Notes under the pieces: model-generated | What the model saw: the letters and a program-made list of their open reading frames with translations, nothing else | What the model was told of the DNA's origin: nothing | Database searches by the model: none | NCBI GenBank assembly: GCA_947568835.1 | Contig: OX387603.1 | Location: 7,166,701-7,230,700 of the forward strand | Reading direction: 5' to 3' | DNA from: Protonemura montana | Lineage: Eukaryota; Arthropoda; Insecta; Plecoptera; Nemouridae | DNA length: 64,000 bases | Translations under genes and position numbers: made by a program | Shown here: piece after piece, positions 20,543-64,000 of the stretch | Layout of the letters: each line of letters opens with the position of its first letter | Position numbering within the stretch: the first letter of the stretch is position 1

Positions 20543-21564
20543 TTTAACGACGCGCTGTTTTGACAACTGGCCCTGCGGCACTGGTCTAATGGCGTCGGTG
20601 AATGAGAGAATGATGATGATGAACCTAGCCTAGCCTAGAAGGAAGGAGGGGAAATCCGGTGTCGGAACGTAGCCTACTCCTGTCAAAGAGCACCGAGAGG
20701 ACCACCGGATTAACGTCCTTTCCGTTTTCTTCCATTTTCATGTTTTTCCGGTGCACACGAACTACAAGATTAACTATACAAATCCATGCTGACGAGAGCA
20801 AAGATGATAGTGTGTTAAACCTTCAGTCGAGAGGTTAATAATAAGCAAGGCGAAGGAAGTTGTAGGGCTAAGTAGTCTACACCATCTCCGGAACAGAACT
20901 GTGCGTAATTGTAAGATGGTCACCCATCCAATATCGGACCCAGCGCAGTGTTGGTTAACTTCATGTGAACTCACGAGAACAGGTGATTCAATCACGCCAA
21001 ACCGTTCGGTGGTGACCCATCCAATACTTGACTCAGCGCTGTGTTGCTTAACTTTGGTTATCTCAGTAGAACCAGTGTTTCCAAGACGCGGAACCGTTCG
21101 GTGGTGACCCATCCAATACTTGACTCAGCGCAGTGTTGCTTAACTTCACTCATCCCACGAGAACAGATGATTCCATCACGCCAAACCGTTCGGTGGTAGC
21201 CCATACAATATACTTGACTCAGCGCAGTTTTGCTTAACTTTGGTTATCTCAGTAAAACTAATGTTTCCAACACACGGAACTGTTCGGTGGTGACCCATAC
21301 AATACTTGACAAGCGCAGTGTTGCTTAACTTCACTCATCCCACGAGAACAGATGATTCCATCACGCCAAACCGTTCGGTGGTAGCCCATACAATATACTT
21401 GACTCAGCGCAGTTTTGCTTAACTTTGGTTATCTCAGTAAAACTAATGTTTCCAACACACGGAACTGTTCGGTGGTGACCCATACAATACTTGACAAGCG
21501 CAGTGTTGCTTAACTTTGGTGATCTAACTAGAACCGGTGTTTCAACACGCCAAACCGTTCAGTT
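20543..21564 (-). mobile_element. SINE with a tandem array of 5S-like heads, copy C
   Basis: Read on the - strand, this starts with seven tandem 5S-like head units and ends with the SINE body seen in copies A and B. The unit junction (AACCGTTCGG or variant on the + strand) recurs at 21,000, 21,092, 21,184, 21,278, 21,369, 21,463 and 21,553, a 90-94-bp spacing. Each unit keeps GTTAAGCAACACTGCGC and a GTATTGGATGGGTCACC-like block, the 5S internal promoter regions. Two unit types alternate, and the pair at about 21,107-21,292 is repeated nearly unchanged at 21,292-21,478. The body (20,543-20,735) carries TAACGACGCGC, CTAGCCTAGCCTAGAAGG, GTAGCCTACTCCTGTC and CCGGATTAACGTCC. Several internal promoters on one element is unusual. 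Confidence 0.85.
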
Positions 21565-39318: not shown

Positions 39319-39384
39319 GTGCAGCGTCCAGAAGCGCGATAACGTCGAGTGAGAGCTCTTAAAAACTCGCCCAATCTTCCCATC

Positions 39385-42300
39385 ATGGATTCGTGCACGC
39401 GAAACATCCGAATCGCGAGCTCCTCTTTTGTTTGCCAAGACAATGAGGGAGATTACTTACCTCCGCAGGAGAAATACGTCTGGAAGAAAAAGGCAGCAAT
39501 GAAAGATTTACCCCGGTTTGCAGACGAAGAAAATCGAAAGAACCCACCATTAACGGAGTCGAGTAGTTTTTTTGAAGAGGTGTCTTACATTAAAACAAAG
39601 CAGGAAACAGAGTTATTGGAGGGCGTTTTCACCTCTCCGGTGCCAAATTGCGAACGGGTTAAGATCAGAAGTCCACGCGAGACACAGGACATAGACATTG
39701 GTGTGGTGTTTACAGTGAATATCTTACAAGTTTCGAAGGGTAAGACCGATGATAATGACCTCGACGAGGACAGAGATTGTAAAGACCACCACCTCGAGAG
39801 AATCGGGTTTGATATGTTTCAAATTCCAGAGCTCTGTGATTTGAACGGCGTCGAGCTGTCCCCTTCTGACGGAGACGACTTTTCGGAAGAGGATTGGAGC
39901 CCCAGGGCGCCTATCGCTGATCTGTCCCTTGAGACAGCGCCATCGCCGACGCTCGACGGACGTCGCGGGCGTCGAGAGCGGCCCGTGCCCCATGGGTTGG
40001 CGATTTATTCAGACGACGTCGGGAAATTAGGAGACGAATTAGCTGCTTGCGAGGCGAGCAAAGAAAACTCGGATGTTAACGATGACAAGTGTTTAAACAT
40101 TAGTAAAGATGAAGAAAGATATGCGCGAGCTGAGCGGGAAAATTGTTATCAAGATAAAGCTGGACTGACAGCAGAGGTATTGATTTTAAGACCTGACGAG
40201 CAGTCGTCGACGTCGTCGTCTTCGTCTGATGAGGAGGAGCACGGAAGCACTGTACTGAGTAATGCATGCTCGCTGAGTGCGTACAATCCTTGGAGTGACA
40301 GAGACCTCTCCGATGTGCAGGAGGAGGACGAGGACGAAGTCGACGCCGAAGCCGAGAACGAGCGCGATTTTTCCGGCACCAAAAGTGAAGTACAAGACGT
40401 CGTCGAGCGTGAAGAGACTTTGGTACAGCGCGAGGTTGATAACACATTTGACGAGAAAAGTAAAGGGGAATACGACGCGGAGGAGACGTTGATTCCAGTC
40501 GCGCTGAAGGAGCGACGATGCGAAAAGAACGACGCAGACATCGACGCCGAGGGTAGGCCGATAAGCTGCCGAGGGGAAGATACCGAAGCGATGGGGGCGA
40601 CGTGTCCCGAACAGCGAAAACCTGCAGCAGCGTCGTCGGTCGCGGTCGAAACCCAAGCCTGTGGAATCGCGGCGAAATACGACACGCCGATGCTGGCAGA
40701 CCACACCGACGCCGTCCCACATGTGTTCGTCCACATAAGAGCAGAACAAGATGTCGTAGATAACCGCATCTCCCTCGACAACAACAAGGCGTTGAAATTC
40801 GCAGGCGGTGGCGGTAGAAAGGGGTCAAGGTCTAGGGATAAAGACAGTCCTCTGCGGCGAGAAGAAGAGGAATTGGGTTACGCAAAGGAACTTAAAGCGC
40901 CAATCGACCTACGGCAAGAAATAGGGGCCAGAGCGTCAGAGCATGGCGACGAGGTCCGTGGCCTTGCGAAGGGGCGTCGGGGCGAATGCGACGCGATCGC
41001 CCGGCAGACGGCGGGCAAAGAGCGTGACGACGTTCCCACGGGGTGCGCGTCGGACAACGGAAGCGGCGTTCACGCGGAACGCGGGCGGGAAGGGCTAGTG
41101 CAGGACGCAGTCGAGCACGCGAGTGGCGCCGGGGACGGCCGAAGTGGTCCCCGCATACAGTCGACAGACGTGTATGATAATCGCAAACGAGTGGAAAGTG
41201 AAGTAGTTCATCATCTTTACCGTGGGAGCCGTCATGGGAACGCGCTCGACGGCGAGAGTAAGGCGGGCTCTAATCTGAACAACAACAACAACGACATTGA
41301 GTGTGTACGCGCAGACGAGTGCGGCGTCGCTGCATGTCGGGACTGGGTAAAAACGTCTTGTCAATCTTGTTCGCGGGCCGCGCGACGCAGACACAAAGCA
41401 ATTCCTTTTATCGAGGAGACCAGTTCGTCGGCGACATCGACGGAGAATTCTCCGCGCTCCGATTGCGGCTGCGAGACTCGCGAAGGTGGCACGAGCGCGT
41501 CAATGCTCCTGTCGGAAGTTCCGTACTCCTGCGAGGAGATGCCTTGCTGTCAGTGCCAAGGGTCACTCCAGGGCGGGACGTGTCTGCCGCCATCCCGGGA
41601 CCAGCTCGTCTCGGTCTCCTTGGTCCAGAAAGTCCAGCATTCCGACAGCTCTTCCGCGCCGTCGGAGTTGAGCTCAGATTCCGAGCAGGACGCCGACGTC
41701 TACCTGGCCGGCCTCGTCGAGAGCTATACGCATATCTTACAGCCTCTACGTAAGCTCTCCGAATTCAGCTGGGAGAGCATTACGGTGAAGCCGACGCCGA
41801 CGCTGCCAGGCGATAAGCCTACGGCGCGTCGCCTCCTCGCCTGCCGGTGCCAGCGCGCGAGCGGATGCCTACACCTGCACCTCGCGTCGGCGTCGGCGGC
41901 AGAGGGTGGCCTATCGAGCGGAGGCGGCATGACGGCGATGGACCGAGCGGCGGAGGCTGAGGACGAACGCACGCCGACCGAACCCGACTTCATGACCGAC
42001 CGCGATGGAATATTGACCCAAAAAGGAAGAGAAATGGCGGTTAAAACACACACTGGTAACAGAGACGGAGCGGCCTGCAGCGAAAGAGAGATGATCGGCC
42101 GAGCGGAGGCTGCCGGACACGGCGACAACGAGTCGGACAGAGACGAGGATATTTGGCACGAGTGCGAAAGCGAACCGAAGGGAGGTTCGGCGAAGGCGAC
42201 GCCGAGCGCGACGGAGCGATGGGAGGACCGCGAGCGCGACGAGGACGCAGGGTGTGGCGCGGCACGGAGAGTGTCCTTCGCGTCGGCGCGGCGGTCGCAC

Positions 42301-44734
42301 GACGCCGCGGAGGCGGACAGGGCACACAGTAGCGGCAGCGACGGAGCAGGCAGCATCGCCGGCAGTGCACGGGACGTCGACGCCGTCGACAGCACAGCTG
42401 AGTCGTTGACAGCCGGTGCAGGGGACAGCGAGCGCTGTGCACCGAGGCCCGGGGACAGCGGTGACCCGCGTGCGTCGCTCCAGCAGCACAGTGGTGACAG
42501 CGAACGTAATGGAGTGAAACGTGCGCTCGTAGAGCGGCATGCAGTGATTAGTTCGGCAGACAATGCGCATTGTTTAGAGGAGTCACGCGGTGGGAACGAG
42601 CGTGCTGCGCGCGGTAACCTCCAGGTGAATGGCTCACGTGGGCCAAGTCGACAACTAGGCAGTGTTTTTGTGTCGTGCGACGCGAGTGGTGGAGACGTTG
42701 TTGACTCGTCGAGTGAAGGCGTCGCGAGGTTACAAAGCGTCAGCTTGCAAAGCGTGTGCGTGAAATCATCGTCCGCACGTCTCGATCACGGCACGCACGG
42801 TGCAGCGGGGGTTCCACGTGGCGAGTGCATTGGCGACCGAGCAGGAAGTTGCAAGGAAGTTAGTGACCTGGTTTTGACTGTCGACAGGGACCGGCAGGGG
42901 AACAAGCCGTCGTTTGCAAAGAGTGTTTGCCACTCGGACGGCGGCGCGTCTTTGGAGAAACCAGGCGCAAACGTCAGCGAATTAGACGCGAGAGCTCGAG
43001 TGGCGTCTGAATATGGGCCTGACGAAGAGCGACCAGATTCTTCACGTAACGAGCGCGCCGGGGCAAAAAGTCGCTGCGGTCTAGAGAGTGGAGTGTTCGT
43101 GTCGGACCGAGGTGCTCAATCGCCTCCGATAGCAAACAGTAAGCTCGCCTCACCTAAAGGAAGCAGTGGACAGAGTCAAGTGAGCGATAACGAGGTTAAT
43201 TACTTGGCTATTTTATCAGGCATTACCGAGTCGGCAATCGAATTGGAAAGCAATATCAAGAAAAACTTAGGATTGTCGATTTCCGATTTGAAAACATCGT
43301 CCGCAATCAAGCCAAGTGAAGCGATCGAAGCAACTCGATATTCTGGCTTAATTAATCGGGAAGAACACGACTCGACTAATGAGCGATGCTTAATTAGTAA
43401 TGTGAATGCCAATTCAGAGTTTCACGGTTGCTCGGCCACTCCACCCAAAGACGCCGAGACTCTTGAGAAAATAAATCAAGTCCTTTCTGGAGAACCTACG
43501 TTATTAGAAAACTCCGATAGCAACACAGAAACTAGTCAATTGAAACTTTGCCAAAGACCGACTGCGTCGATACCACGCCGTTCGGTAGGTGACAAGCCCG
43601 GAGTCCGTCCCGTGACCGAGTTAGCAAACACTGGTGGGTCGCTGCCACCCTCTTCAGGTCCAGTGCCCGTTGGCCTAAACGCGATCAGCATTGGTTGCAG
43701 TTGCAGCACTGGCGAAGTCCATGGTTCGACAGACAGTTTGGCGCTGCCGCCTTTTCATTACAAAGACAGACGTTTAGCCGGCGGAGGGCAGGCGGGGAAC
43801 GAGCCCCAAAGTGCGAATGCGATCTGCAGCAACTTGCGAGCGATCCTCAGTCCCGATGGGTGTGCATTGAGCGACCAAGATGAGTGTAGTTCTGGAGGGT
43901 GCAGAAGTTTTGACATCTTCGGCGAAGGCTACGAGGAACGGTTAGTGCACAGAGGGGGTGATAAAGCTAATGGAACGACCTTCACCGGCGCTGCTGACGA
44001 CTTAAACGGACAACGCGAACAAGTTTGGACCACACAGAATTGTCTTCTTGACTTTGACAAGCACGAGGCAAGTTTGTACAAGAGTTTCCGCGATCGTGGC
44101 TTCCACGAGGAACATGCTTACGCGCGAGATGCTGACGACGGAAAGTGGACGCACGCCGAGGCCGAGCTGTTGACTTGCCAGGTGTGCGACCATCCCGACG
44201 ACGACACCGACGCCATGAGGCAAAAACATAAGGGCTCGTCGAGCGACATCGAAGACGCCGACAAGGCACCGACGACGGTGGTTGTCAAACAAAACGGACA
44301 GATCACCAAGTCGATACTGAAAACGATAGCGAAACGTTCGAATTCGAAGAAATCGAAGAAAGAACCGACCAAGAAGAAGAACCGTGTGATTTTTAACGAG
44401 AGTCTGAACACGTCTATCGATGCGGACTACGTGATCCTGGTGCGCGAGGAGGAAGAGTATGAGTACGAGTGTTCGGACGATGTAGCTTGCACTTGTAACA
44501 TGAGGCCGGTGGAACGCGAGATGGTCAGGATTGACAGGAGTGGCGGAGGGTACGACCTGAACATTGCGGACCAGTGTTCAGCGTTCGAGCCACCCACTGA
44601 CTTTGTCGACCAGCTCACGCTGAGCCCTCCTGAGGGGTACAAGGATGGCAACTCGCATTTTTACTACCATCAGCCGCTGAGGAACATCAGCACCAAGGGG
44701 CCGACGCCGGATGAGGTTCACGGCGAGGAGTCTG
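39385..44734 (+). CDS. Giant exon: acidic disordered protein with PP1-docking motifs, N-terminal 1,783 residues
   Basis: I do not recognise the family. The start is the ATG at 39,385 (CATCATGG); a GTG further 5' lies in the 5'UTR and is not a credible start in an animal. A TAA lies in frame at 39,340. The exon ends at TCTG followed by GTAAGT, leaving phase 1, so the protein continues and the TAG at 44,743 is intronic. Most of the 1,783 residues are Asp/Glu/Ser/Arg-rich and look disordered, with serine runs before acidic clusters (about 270-292) typical of CK2 sites. There is no signal peptide or membrane helix. Cysteine-rich patches lie at 640-662, 694-733 and 820-828. A helix-like stretch lies at about 1,272-1,310. 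Near the C-terminal end are SILK (1643-1646), a Lys/Arg-rich stretch resembling a bipartite nuclear signal, and RVIF (1667-1670), followed by an acidic run. A further RRVSF lies at 961-965. Inference: a PP1 regulatory or targeting protein. Coding status is very secure; the role is not. Confidence 0.93.
44311..44394 (+). other. SILK plus RVxF PP1-docking pair
   Basis: SILK is encoded at 44,311-44,322 and RVIF at 44,383-44,394, with 20 residues between. Known PP1 regulators that use both motifs carry SILK on the N-terminal side of RVxF, as here. The spacer is strongly basic and the flank after RVIF is acidic. The order and spacing make a chance pair less likely, but short linear motifs always need a binding test. 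Confidence 0.6.
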
Positions 44735-44740
44735 GTAAGT
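44732..44740 (+). other. Splice donor ending the giant exon
   Basis: CTG followed by GTAAGT is a consensus donor at 44,735. The coding frame is left in phase 1. Reading on would add only Gly-Lys-Ser before TAG. Confidence 0.85.
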
Positions 44741-46335
44741 CATAGTTTAGCTGACGAATCCTAGCTTTTGGGAAATTGTATATCTCTTGGATCAGCAGGT
44801 TCCTTCTCTCATTTAAAAGCGTTGTTCTAGCCTAGAAAGGACTCGTCACAATTTCTACACCACCTCTAAAATACCAAGGTGAATGCTCTATGCACACTGG
44901 CATGCATGCCGAGCTGTCGGAAAATCTGTCAGAAAGCTTCATAATAACAAGCCTGGTAACCCTTTTTGATGAGAATTTAGTAATTTACGCAAAGAGCCTG
45001 GAACAGCACGTCATGTGGTTATGCCATGAACTTTAAAATGGGAACACAGAAATTATGTTCAGCTTTTGAAAACACATGGGTTAGCAGTGTGGCACTTCTA
45101 TCGTCTTGTAGCGGGTGCGGCACTACCACCGTAAATAGAAATATGGTGATTGAAATTAAAGGTGATCTCAAGCACGAGCACTAACAATTTGATCTTCACA
45201 GAGGGTGCTTTAAAAAATTTTGACTGAATTAATCCAAGGGATGTTTGAAAATGCCTGAGTAAGTCGCAGATCACGGCACTTCCACTTATTATTGAAACTC
45301 GTGTAAGCGGATTGAAGCTTTAGTCGTGCCTTGTCAACCACTAGATCCATTCACAAGAAATCTCGTAGAGTTATATATGAAAATTCAGAAAACCTTTTAT
45401 GTCAAAGGTCAATACCGCGTTTGGAATTTCTCGAGCATGAATTTGGTCGAGTCTCCTTTCGAAAAGTTTTCATGCGTCGATGAACTTCCATGTAATTCCC
45501 AGAACCTCTGAACCCCGATTTTCCATTAGACTTGGTCGTTTCTTTCACTCGGGAAAACTCGCTCATGATAATTTCATCAGGGAAAATTTATTTTTAGAAC
45601 GCAATATAGATTTCTCGCGGAATTGTCTCGCTACCTGAAGTCTGAACAACTGTTTTCCTTTGCTCTTTCATTGCGTCTTTACTCGACTGCGTGGACATTT
45701 AGAAGCCGTCTATTTTTAGACGACTTTTGATCCAAAGACAGATTTTATTTTAAGAAAACACGAAGCTGTATCCAGTTAAAACACGACATTTCCCTTCTCA
45801 TTAAACGACAAGGAAAATCTAGAACGTATTTTATAAAATGTTAGCTGCACAAAGCTGCACATTGAATTAAAATTAACTTGATTTTCTCGTTTCAATCTTT
45901 ACATAAAAATTCAATATACGTTTTTTTTCCACTGTTGGCGCCATCAGCCCTGCTCAGCGTACCGAGGATTTTTCCAGAGCATGACATGTTTTAGTTGTTT
46001 ATTTTGGAATGAATTGTGGATCTCGCAAAGCCATTCTGCGATCAAAGCCCGCTCTAGACAGCCATTGCAGGGACGAGACGAGACAGTCAAGGCCTGAGCA
46101 GAAGATTCAGACTTGAAACTCTCGCGAGGCTGTGACTCGGAAAATGTCAGTAACTTTTCCTGACTGTTTGGCAGTTGTTAAATCGATTCAGACGAATTAA
46201 CGAGACGAAGTTCTCGGGAAGTTTATTGTTTATTTGATGTTCGGATTTGCGTTTGACGTTGAGCTTTGCAAGTCTTCGTTACTGGATTTGAAATTCTACC
46301 AAGTACATTGAATTGTAATTTTTAAGAACATCTCT
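44741..46335 (+). other. Probable intron after the giant exon
   Basis: AT-rich, no secure exon. A candidate acceptor at 45,188-45,201 would add E G A L K N F D and a stop. Other good acceptors, such as CATTTTCTCTTTCAG at 47,338-47,352, also give only a few codons before a stop. I cannot choose among them from sequence alone. Confidence 0.4.
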
Positions 46336-49400: not shown

Positions 49401-50440
49401 TGACTACTGCGGCAATGTCATGTAGCTGCACAGAAAGATACATGTGATATGCTCTTAAAATTGGCCTCTGCCTTTCAGTGTTTTGTCCTATTGTCTGTTC
49501 GTGCGCGTGGAGAATGTCGCGTGGACAGGCGCCACCTCTCCGCAGCGCCACACGTGTACCAAAGAAAGTATGTTCTGTCTTTTATAATAATGGGAAGAAA
49601 ACCAGGACGCCTACAGCCCAATGATGTCGAAGCTTCTTTTGTTAAGAGGTCTCAAAAAGACTTCGGGCTGTCCATGTTTTAGGCTTTCTTAAAAAATAAA
49701 ACACGCTAAACGTGAATACAGCCAAAGAACGGTTTCGAAGCAACAGAGGATAATTTATGAAAATGCGGGATGTTGTTACATACAAACTGAAAAGCGTTCG
49801 GGTAATTCGCGCGTTCGCAACGCAGCAAGGAATTGTCGACAAGATGTTGTAAAGAACTCTTTGCGTCTAATTAGGAAGAAAATATCAGCACGAGGTGAAT
49901 GGTTGGATTTGAAAATGTCGGAAGGAAAACTTGATAATTACAAAGGGTCTCTTTTATAAACGCGACGCGCGTGCAATTACGATTTCCACGTCAATGACTG
50001 TTTCATCTTGGGGCTGTGAGTTCCTCATTTGTCATGTTGTTTGATCTTGGTTGGATGTAAAACATATCGTGGGATGGGAAGGTAACATATTCACCTTAAC
50101 TAGTGACATATTGTTGGGTTTAGAATGGCAAGGTAGTTCAAAGTCGCGGACTTATGGTTTAATTTTGGTTGATTTGGTAGATTGACCTGGGTTGATGTTT
50201 CGTTGCCAACGCCGATGAAAAGTCGACCCAAGTCCTTTCAAGGACCAAGAGTCAATCCAAAGTCCAAACAGAGCAAAACTGTCCAATATATACATTGCCA
50301 ATGTTGGGTTTCTAGTTTTTCAGAGTCTCCGCGCTAATATTTAACGTTCCATCAACCTAACGAACCTCCAATACGAGTTAAAGGTTGTGGCCAGCCGATG
50401 ACGCTTGCTGCTGCCTTTTTTAGCAATCCCTTAAAATGAA
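46463..50440. other. Non-coding block, likely intron or intergenic
   Basis: Includes a short GC-rich patch at 47,440-47,520 and a strong acceptor-like sequence at 47,338-47,352. Open frames of up to 104 codons have no motif. No gene recognised. Confidence 0.35.
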
Positions 50441-60349: not shown

Positions 60350-60934
60350 TGGCCAAGTCACAAAAATCTCTTCTTTGTCACCTTTTCTGCGAAAACCCTT
60401 CTCCATGTTACCGATGGTTGATTTTCTAATCAAATTTTTGTAGCAAGCAATTGCCACAATGAACCAAAATAAACAAATTACCCTCCTCTGTTGATGTTGC
60501 TGTTGCTGTTCATAAACAAAGAAGTATTTCATGACAGATATTTGGTGGGTCGCAAGTCAGAGTTATTGAATCATTTAATATGATCAACAATGCACAAATA
60601 GACATTCATATTGCTTTTTTTTTATTTGTGGCATAAATCAAAGTTAACAGCCAATGTACAAAATAAATAATATTTGAAATTATGGCCCCCACTTCGTGAT
60701 TTTAGCACTATTTACAATTATTACTCATTACTTGTAATTATTTATCTTTTGAGAGAGAAAAAAAACTACGATATTAAAGACAACATTACGCTGTTGTGTT
60801 TCGATTTTTCCCAACGAGCGAAAAAGAGAAAGAAAACGATATTATTGAAATCACGTTCTTTTATTGGTAATATTCCAATGGTCAGGAGTCGGTATCTCTA
60901 TTGGCGCAGGGAGATCAGGAATGTACCCCTTCAC
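60350..60934. other. AT-rich downstream flank of the protease relic
   Basis: No gene. On the - strand the protease frame continues after its TGA with V K G Y I P D L, which resembles a chymotrypsin C-terminal P G V Y T x V block, so up to about 90 bases here may once have been coding. Confidence 0.4.
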
Positions 60935-62116
60935 TCATTCTAGAACTTGTTGCGAGCTGACTCTGTGAGACATGACCCCAGCGAAGAGTCCGTCACAGAT
61001 TAGTGCACCTCCGATGTCGCCCCCGCAAATGTCTTGGGTGGAACTCACAGCTTTGGCGCACACATAGAACGTGTCAAAGTGCCAGTCTTGTTTGTCAAAA
61101 TGTTTCTGCAGATACTTGCAGTAAAGTACACCGCCAACGCTGACTAAGAACCAGTTAACTCGCTTTTTTTCTTTTATCTTGTCCGTACGGCCTATGCCGA
61201 CGCCGATGCAGCGAATGAAGTCATCTTCTGTGATGGGTTTGGCCATCTTTGGTATCTGGGTGGGTCACTCGATCTTCCAGGGTTTGCCGACTTTGACGAG
61301 TGCTATGTTGACGTCGAACATCGTGGACACGTGGAGGTAGGCGGTGTGGACGAAGAGTTTTACTCCTGTGCGCTTTTGTGAAAATCCTAGAAATATTTGT
61401 TCCTATAAAGACACGTTTTAAAACCGTCTCTCGTATTTTGAATCAACTGTAAGATACTGGGCTATTTTTGAAACTAAAGAATAAACTATAAGTAACAGAA
61501 AATTAGAACATAATCATGTTATTCTTAGAAACACTGTTTATCTCTCGAAAATTGGTGTCCAAACGGAGACTCAAACCCCGATCTCCGCCTATCACTGGTT
61601 CGAGTCCTTGTTTGGTCACCAATTTTTGAAAAGTTATTTTTGTTTCTAGTAATAAAATACAAAGCACAGTGCAAGCATTTACAATTTACACCATATGTCA
61701 TTGAACAAATTCATTTTTTAGTTCGCTTTGAATAATAAAGAGCTAGATCAAATACATTCCTACTTAATTTCTCTCCTCCAAATTTGGCATCTCCATTCAA
61801 ATCGACCTGTGTACGTCTTGGTCAAACTCACTTCGAGCTTCTTGTCATCGCGCTTCTTCTTGTCGTGGACGATCAGCTGATAGCATCTGGCTGCTGTCAT
61901 GACAAATTCTTTGGAAATCATTGTCGAGGAGCATGTGATGGATCGTGCCTCTTTCTTGCGCCAATACCAAAGTATTTTGGCAGCGTACGGGTATTCGCCG
62001 AACTTAGCGATCGTGCCATCGAGTATTCTGCGATGCCTTGTTTGTGATGGGTTTCTGTCGGCCCGGTAGGGAGGAAAACATGACATGAATAGATATATTA
62101 ACACTAGAAATTTCAT
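60935..62116 (-). pseudogene. Chymotrypsin-like (S1) protease homologue, triad lost, in-frame stop
   Basis: Two exons: 62,116-61,807 and 61,386-60,935, joined in phase 1 to give about 253 codons. Residues 1-19 form a signal peptide (M K F L V L I Y L F). R30 before I L D G matches the activation site; G E Y P Y A A K and C S S T M I S then F V M T A A R C follow the family order. In active enzymes the last block is T A A H C, so the catalytic His is Arg (codon 77, 61,886-61,888). H T A Y L then V N I A L V K V places Asn (codon 130) where the catalytic Asp stands. G G D I G G A L replaces G D S G G P L, with Ile (codon 228, 61,013-61,015) for the nucleophilic Ser. A TGA at 61,265-61,267 interrupts the frame, and the C-terminus stops about 20 residues early. 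Donor and acceptor are inferred; the donor (G followed by GTCGAT) is weak. Cysteines 62 and 78 are kept. A secreted non-catalytic homologue decayed to a pseudogene fits best. Confidence 0.75.
61536..61640. mobile_element. Two tRNA-SINE ends in inverted orientation
   Basis: On the - strand GGCGGAGATCGGGG, GGTTTGAGTCTCC and GGACACCA match the SINE at 3944. On the + strand, abutting it, GGTTCGAGTCC and GGTCACCAATTTTTGA are another such end. Together they form an imperfect palindrome with arms of about 26 bases (61,551-61,576 and 61,597-61,622). It lies within the intron of the protease relic. Confidence 0.65.
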
Positions 62117-64000
62117 TTTTTAAGATATTTTTGGGTTCGGATATTTTGAAGGATGCTAGATACTAATTGCGAGGTTTAAATAGTTTCTTAGGAGATAGGT
62201 TACAAAAACATACTTCGAATTGTAATTCGAAAAATGAAAAGATATTTCCAAACTTGTTATAGGTATTTCGTTATCATGTATCAGCAGTCAATTTCATCGT
62301 TAACTCTAATTATCTATAGAAATTAATCTGTATATCTCGATCTAGATCTAGATCTCTGTCATCCGAATTCAATGTTGTCTACAATTCCAGACTTTCGATA
62401 GGTTGGAAGAGGAATAATATGCACTGAACTGATCTACCTGAAGCATCTCCGTTACACGAATGTTTCTCTTAAAAGAAGATAGATTCAGAAACAGATTTCT
62501 TTTCCGGCCCACTAAACTAACTGACAGGAAGATCTCTGGCACGGCATAAGCCGTAAATCACTTCGCGCCAAGACCGAATACCAACACCGTCTTGCCGCAA
62601 ACGCAACTTCACCGGCGTCTTATTACTTTCTTGGGCAGGGCAACTGTCCGTTGCGTGTTCGGAAGGGTGTGCACTTCCGACCTTTACCCGCCATTGTATT
62701 CGGCCGGATTCGTTCCATTAGAATTTACTGCTGAGAAGTGATTACAGCAACTTCTCGGTACAATCACGAATCACTGCATCGTGATAATTGCTATCGGATG
62801 GATTCCCGCTGATTACAGTTAATTGTATGACTAGTCAATTGCAGGACGTAGGTTTCGTTAGAGATTTCTGTTAAGGGGACGCCACATGCTTTTCGTAGCA
62901 GTGCCACCACGGAGTTTATTTATTTTCACAACCCGATGCTAACATGCACCTTAAACATTTCTAGTGAAATGCTAAAAACTTTCATCGCCGTATAAAAATT
63001 CTTCATCGAATGCAGTAGCAACTTAATTATTGATAGACTTGTTTAGTGATGTGCATTCTTCTCGGAATGTAAAACTATTTTTAAAGTTGCTCCTGCAAAC
63101 GTTGCTAGTTATTCCAATGCAATATCGCGATAAAAAGACCAAATAGGAATCCGCTCGATGTTCATGAAGTAGAAACAGTACAGTAAGTGCATAACTGAGT
63201 AATTGGCTGCAGAGTAGCATACCATCGGAGTAAACAAAACAATTGATCATGTCAGGTAACGGGACCGCTGCTTTGTTTGCTTTATCGACACAAGTTTATT
63301 ATTAATGGAGAGTGACAGTACTTCTGTGATTGATTCATTCTTGTGGCGAGGAATGAATTGCTTAAATTCCGGTCGGAGCGGACTCGTGAAAAACATCTCG
63401 AGGTTACTATTTGTGTTTCTAAAATCTTTCTGTCTCCTGAAATGTGAAATGACAGTGGCTGCCCCGAATCTCTGTGAGCTGATTTACTCGGGTAAATAAT
63501 CCTTGAGGATCATGTAATCCTCGGTCCCTTGGTGCCGCTAAGACGAATGTCCAAGAAATGGTTCAAGATGTCACCGTGATCTGTCAGAATCAATGCGATA
63601 CAAACGATTCAATTTAAGTGTAAGCCAGAACTTAAATTTTATAAGTGGTACTGGGAAATTGCAGGTTTTTCTGTAGATATATCGTGAACTTTTAAACTGA
63701 TTCATATGTTATCTTCATTGCATGTCTTTTGGCAACACTTCTTTACGGGTTGTTCATTCGAAAGAATGAATCCTATCCCATCAATGGACCCATCAAAACT
63801 ACTTACTCCAAATAATTTTTGCATTTAAAGAAAAAGGGGGTTCTGTTTACAGTAGCCCTACCCGAAACAAACCGATCGGCATTTCATGTCTTACAAAAAT
63901 GTTTGCACCGAAAGGTTTTTAACACCATCCTTACAACGTACGTGGTCGTCGCTTGAAGTGCCACCACGGGACCATCCTACGATAACATGGTCGTTCTTTT
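62117..64000. other. AT-rich non-coding block
   Basis: A short GATCTA repeat lies at 62,339-62,355. I see no gene. The first ~150 bases upstream of the protease start have no obvious TATA box. Confidence 0.4.

Follow-up and report, generated by a model that had tools for sequence, protein, structure and literature searches.

Two Large Open Frames on One Strand

The analyzed stretch of Protonemura montana DNA (the window; 64,000 nucleotides) carries a + strand frame, 39343-44745, that translates without a stop for 1,800 codons. The gene search also took in 80 kb of upstream flank and 40 kb of downstream flank (a 184-kb region in all); the sole downstream + strand frame of comparable size, 98795-102391 (window coordinates, outside the window), is open for 1,199 codons. 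The exons to which these frames appear to belong are called A and B below, residues are numbered along the joined translation, and slashes mark splice boundaries.

39319..39384, + strand: part of the exon A 5′UTR; the acceptor TTTCTGTTGCAG/GTGCAG lies directly upstream, and the sequence contains an in-frame stop
39385..44734, + strand: exon A coding sequence, 1,783 residues and one extra base (phase 1), of polar and charged composition, with no known domain
44735..44740, + strand: splice donor CTG/GTAAGT, by consensus score
44735..64000, + strand: the part inside the window of a putative 54-kb intron whose far end, 98822, would abut exon B
98823-102394 from window base 1 (C2:7265523-7269094; L013:4823-8394), + strand: exon B, by open frame and acceptor

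The first ATG of exon A is at 39385, in the context CCCATCATGG. Because the leader holds an in-frame stop, this is the earliest possible ATG start in the exon. The succession of acceptor, short stop-bearing leader, and ATG indicates that the protein probably begins in exon A. The pyrimidine content of this acceptor is only moderate (0.50). The donor at the other end is among the strongest at the locus: of 10,315 + strand GT sites in the 184 kb, 3 score equally high under consensus weights, this donor included. Reading through it meets a stop after three codons, GKS.

Several neighboring features were observed. Exons of a trypsin-family serine protease lie at window positions 60500-62500 on the − strand (Pfam Trypsin, E 1.1e-12), inside the putative intron. 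A Put_Phosphatase gene (L008:8300-9299, − strand; E 2.7e-71) lies ~11 kb upstream of the window, and an 856-codon frame (L008:4010-6590, + strand), ~13-16 kb upstream, is possibly a receptor, with a 7tm_1 match of E 3.2e-6 whose 27.3 bits fall below the cut-off of 30.5. At ~20-22 kb upstream, in L007 and the start of L008 (− strand), a rough exon model predicts exons that we take to resemble a ZMYND11-type gene. Within the window, 20770-21560 (− strand) is apparently repeated DNA whose ORFs reiterate strings such as GHHRTVP and ITKVKQNCAESS.

Family Searches and Composition

Neither exon matched any Pfam family at E values up to 10 (0 families), which fits the original prediction of a protein from an unrecognized family. 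NCBIfam, a prokaryote library, gave no match, and the viral and prokaryote sequence collections held no relative, as expected of a eukaryotic gene. Searches of PDB sequences returned no match for exon A, exon B, or the module of exon B described below, and a single chance-like match for the module of exon A (E 0.63, in a lysine-rich stretch); this search is uninformative, since the SILK exon of the genome's own inhibitor-2 (I-2) also finds nothing. Within the same genome, the C-terminal 155 residues encoded by exon A matched only themselves, and exon B has no copy elsewhere save one weak match (E 0.056).

The chain is probably disordered, judging from its composition and the missing Pfam domains. 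A crude composition index, which does not amount to a disorder predictor, found almost no hydrophobic window.

One lead, Serrano (Sano) of Drosophila—Dishevelled-binding, cytoplasmic, and conserved in arthropods—was compared by description only and set aside: nothing links it to this protein, and in the main text of its source the words "phosphatase" and "motif" each occur 0 times.

A SILK-RVxF Pair in Exon A

Near the end of exon A, a SILK motif is followed by an RVxF motif in the same frame. We refer to this arrangement as module 1.

42265..42279, + strand: RRVSF, residues 961-965, a candidate extra RVxF that has an RRxS context and is not paired with a SILK
44311..44322, + strand: SILK of module 1, residues 1643-1646, by translation
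44323..44382, + strand: basic spacer of module 1, TIAKRSNSKKSKKEPTKKKN, 20 residues, net charge +8 by charge count
44383..44394, + strand: RVIF, the RVxF of module 1, residues 1667-1670, by translation
44395..44514, + strand: acidic flank, the 40 residues downstream of RVIF, net charge −10 by charge count

Translation reproduced exactly the coordinates and residue numbers originally given for SILK and RVIF, which are 20 residues apart, and the basic spacer and acidic downstream flank that accompanied them in that prediction are both present. These two charge features differ in rarity. Among all 20-residue windows in the joined protein (2,953), 8 reach a charge of +8, placing the spacer among its most basic segments, whereas the −10 of the flank is not rare, being matched in acidity by 96 of 2,933 windows of 40 residues. 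RVIF is followed by no well-placed hydrophobic pair, so there is no evident sign of the extended docking seen in some regulators. Exon A holds one further strict RVxF match, RIGF at residue 139; RRVSF may be a chance match.

The spacer also bears on the suggestion that the protein is perhaps nuclear. Its lysine-rich sequence is the sole basis for that location and is equally explicable as an electrostatic contact with PP1, so that a role as PP1 contact and one as nuclear localization signal (NLS) both fit.

A giant exon with a PP1 motif near its end recalls the lemur-type kinases: LMTK/KPI-2 binds PP1 through an RVxF-like motif, and its gene also has one giant exon. That exon A is the tail of such a kinase is nevertheless very improbable. 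Its frame has its own ATG after a 5′UTR acceptor, and tyrosine-kinase regular expressions were unmatched in any of the six frames of the 184-kb region. A looser pattern, applied from 9.5 kb upstream, returned two lone DFG-like matches (49659, + strand; 75734, − strand) that we take as chance. With its own ATG and no match to the tyrosine-kinase expressions within 184 kb, this identity was dropped.

Probable Joining of Exons A and B

Exon B carries a second pair in the same order, module 2, which lies outside the window.

98966-98977, + strand: GILK of module 2, residues 1832-1835, by joined translation
99080-99094, + strand: RNVRF, the RVxF of module 2, residues 1870-1874, by joined translation

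The exon B acceptor ends at 98822 and leaves two bases, complementing the one base left over from exon A; joining the two gives a 2,973-residue product with compatible phases and no internal stop, although a phase match alone arises by chance in 1 of 3 cases. The motif [GS]IL[RK] occurs in this product exactly twice (SILK at 1643, GILK at 1832), each time followed by an RVxF, with gaps of 20 and 34 residues. The 34-residue spacer of module 2 has a net charge of −2 and is thus not basic, so that the two modules are alike in motif order only. RNVRF is followed by an acidic stretch (−14 over 40 residues), matched in acidity by 22 of 2,933 windows. TQT tripeptides occur in exon B at joined residues 1881, 2725, and 2826, the first just after RNVRF; we presume these to be possible LC8-binding sites.

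The intervening DNA was scanned for coding exons. On the + strand, in three frames, no Pfam family in the gap exceeded its cut-off, and a DUF2207_C match inside the putative intron was discarded as noise (13.8 bits against a cut-off of 33). As a control for sensitivity to genuine exons, the same kind of Pfam scan recovers the trypsin and Put_Phosphatase exons nearby. A rough exon model, with exons A and B plus three neighboring open frames as its training set, returned two weak + strand candidates, 49479-49567 and 97118-97234, neither of them convincing.

These observations bear on whether the locus instead holds two adjacent genes with one SILK-RVxF pair each, exon A ending its own gene through the GKS stop or through small exons that escaped the scan. 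The 54-kb separation, the trypsin-like gene on the opposite strand between the exons, and an internal ATG in exon B (ETITMTT) at which translation could start would all suit two genes. They are set against a very strong donor lying just ahead of the exon A stop, matching phases, an exon B frame that is open merely 28 bases upstream of its acceptor, and a gap without a convincing + strand coding exon. The two exons are also dissimilar (BLASTP, best E 3.0), do not look like duplicates, and on this result an origin by duplication was rejected. We regard two separate genes as rather unlikely.

A junction between exons A and B is, by contrast, probable in our assessment. Strand, phase, donor strength, and a gap that yielded no convincing exon argue for it; the 54-kb distance and a moderate acceptor (pyrimidine content 0.64 at exon B) argue against.

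Chance Expectation of the Motif Pairs

Both RVxF sites, RVIF and RNVRF, are canonical in that they fit the consensus [RK]x(0,1)[VI]{P}[FW], and in both modules the SILK-type motif is N-terminal to RVxF, as in a subset of PP1 regulators. For counting, a pair was defined as [GS]IL[RK] followed within 60 residues by this RVxF form; both the consensus forms and the 60-residue limit were chosen once the finding was known.

Composition shuffles of exon A produced a pair in 214 of 100,000 cases, in line with earlier runs (0.185% of 20,000 shuffles, and 0.195% of 20,000 shuffled inside 60-residue blocks). For exon B the count was 33 of 100,000. Among 60,000 shuffles of the joined protein, 130 held at least one pair and 0 held two. 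Across all six-frame ORFs of at least 40 aa in the 184 kb (n = 2,353; 151,003 residues), with 15 SILK-type and 285 RVxF matches, the only pairs were modules 1 and 2. Shuffles and translated genomic DNA of 184 kb are weaker controls than real exons from elsewhere.

A single pair is thus expected in about 1 in 500 proteins of exon A's size, which is suggestive but not decisive on the scale of a proteome: at a shuffle rate of ~0.2%, some chance pairs would be expected in any proteome that includes large disordered proteins by the hundred. One or both pairs could accordingly be accidents of a long charged protein without any link to PP1. Short motifs arise easily in disordered chains, RVxF by itself is common (the 285 matches above), and the controls used shuffled and genomic translations rather than real exons. 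We nonetheless consider an accidental origin unlikely, because two pairs fall in consecutive giant + strand exons, an outcome seen in none of the joined shuffles, because no other ORF of the set carries a pair, and because the SILK-then-RVxF order and the basic spacer of module 1 agree with known PP1 binders.

A Candidate Two-Module PP1 Scaffold

Much of the substrate choice of PP1 comes from its partners. The original prediction took the exon A protein to be a PP1 regulatory subunit; a docking role remains plausible and is strengthened by the second pair in exon B, and the form of regulation would more likely be targeting than inhibition, as the joined protein has no recognizable inhibitory element.

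We give roughly even weight to the full reading in which A and B are two large coding exons of one gene, whose product is a disordered scaffold ~2,973 residues long that docks PP1 through two SILK-RVxF modules, ~190 residues apart and flanking the junction. What the sequence shows directly are the motifs, the open frames, the splice-compatible phases, and the rarity of the pairs; the rest of this reading is proposed. In each module, a single PP1 would receive RVxF in its RVxF groove and SILK in a separate pocket, and its active site would stay unobstructed. In module 1, the lysine-rich spacer would run along the acidic PP1 surface between these pockets, as has been proposed for inhibitor-3. 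The output would be PP1, as one or two catalytic subunits per chain, targeted to partners bound elsewhere on the chain. More speculatively, the LC8-like TQT after RNVRF could dimerize the chain.

Two forms of control can be envisaged. A phosphorylation switch of the kind described for KNL1 (PMC6715587) could act through Ser1643 of SILK, and could not act through the x positions of the RVxF motifs, which are Ile and Arg. Splicing might also set the amount of PP1 recruited. We advance only tentatively, as a possibility on the unlikely side, that one disordered scaffold of ~3,000 residues, its two complete modules split by a 54-kb intron, can hold two PP1 catalytic subunits, and that intron retention yields a shorter form that ends in EESGKS and carries module 1 only.

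None of the literature titles listed concerned such a two-module protein; an orthologue may be present in the supplementary Drosophila SILK/RVxF list of PMC3410773. If borne out, such a scaffold would stand out among PP1 partners, and having two modules makes it cleanly testable by mutation. Should it prove conserved, the PP1 network in these animals would gain an uncharacterized gene. To our knowledge, no PP1 partner with two full SILK-RVxF modules has been described.

Comparison with Known PP1 Regulators

KNL1/Spc105 is marked by MELT repeats and RWD, whereas the giant protein gave 0 Pfam families. In KNL1, PP1 is recruited by SILK plus RVSF, both of which are inhibitable by phosphorylation (PMC6715587). 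The KNL1/Spc105 motifs lie near the N terminus (aa 24-70 were used in PMC6715587), whereas those of the giant protein are mid-chain; and where KNL1 has RVSF, the x position is not Ser/Thr in either RVIF or RNVRF.

Rif1 is likewise large and has a SILK/RVxF PP1 module, which in single-celled organisms follows the SILK-RVxF order found here (PMC3410773). In multicellular organisms the order is reversed to RVxF-SILK, and Rif1 carries HEAT repeats over ~1000 residues, according to the same paper; exons A and B gave 0 Pfam families, a HEAT array included.

Inhibitor-2 (PPP1R2) likewise places a SILK-type motif, GILK, N-terminal to an RVxF-type site. The genome encodes its own I-2 at C2:28.96 Mb, recognizable by GILKN, KETKWDE, AHYNEFEAVKLARDL, and the AHYNE helix (IPP-2 matches). 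The pattern H[YF][NDS]E of the I-2 inhibitory helix is absent from the joined protein, and the IPP-2 Pfam profile matched neither exon A nor exon B. RVIF is canonical, whereas the RVxF-type site of inhibitor-2 is not (PMC10066265).

Inhibitor-3 (PPP1R11) binds PP1 through a SILK-type motif and an RVxF in separate pockets; its linker is basic and is thought to contact acidic PP1 residues fuzzily, and its non-canonical SILK contributes little affinity (PMC10066265). That linker doubles as an NLS (PMC10066265 and PMC10776994). Inhibitor-3 is 126 residues long, is disordered, and places a CCC motif, located after RVxF, over the active site (same papers); in length and in the CCC it differs from the ~2,973-residue, two-module protein proposed here, in which a motif search found no CCC. 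Module 1 itself is built like inhibitor-3 as described in those papers: a SILK-type motif, a short basic linker, and an RVxF, in the same order.
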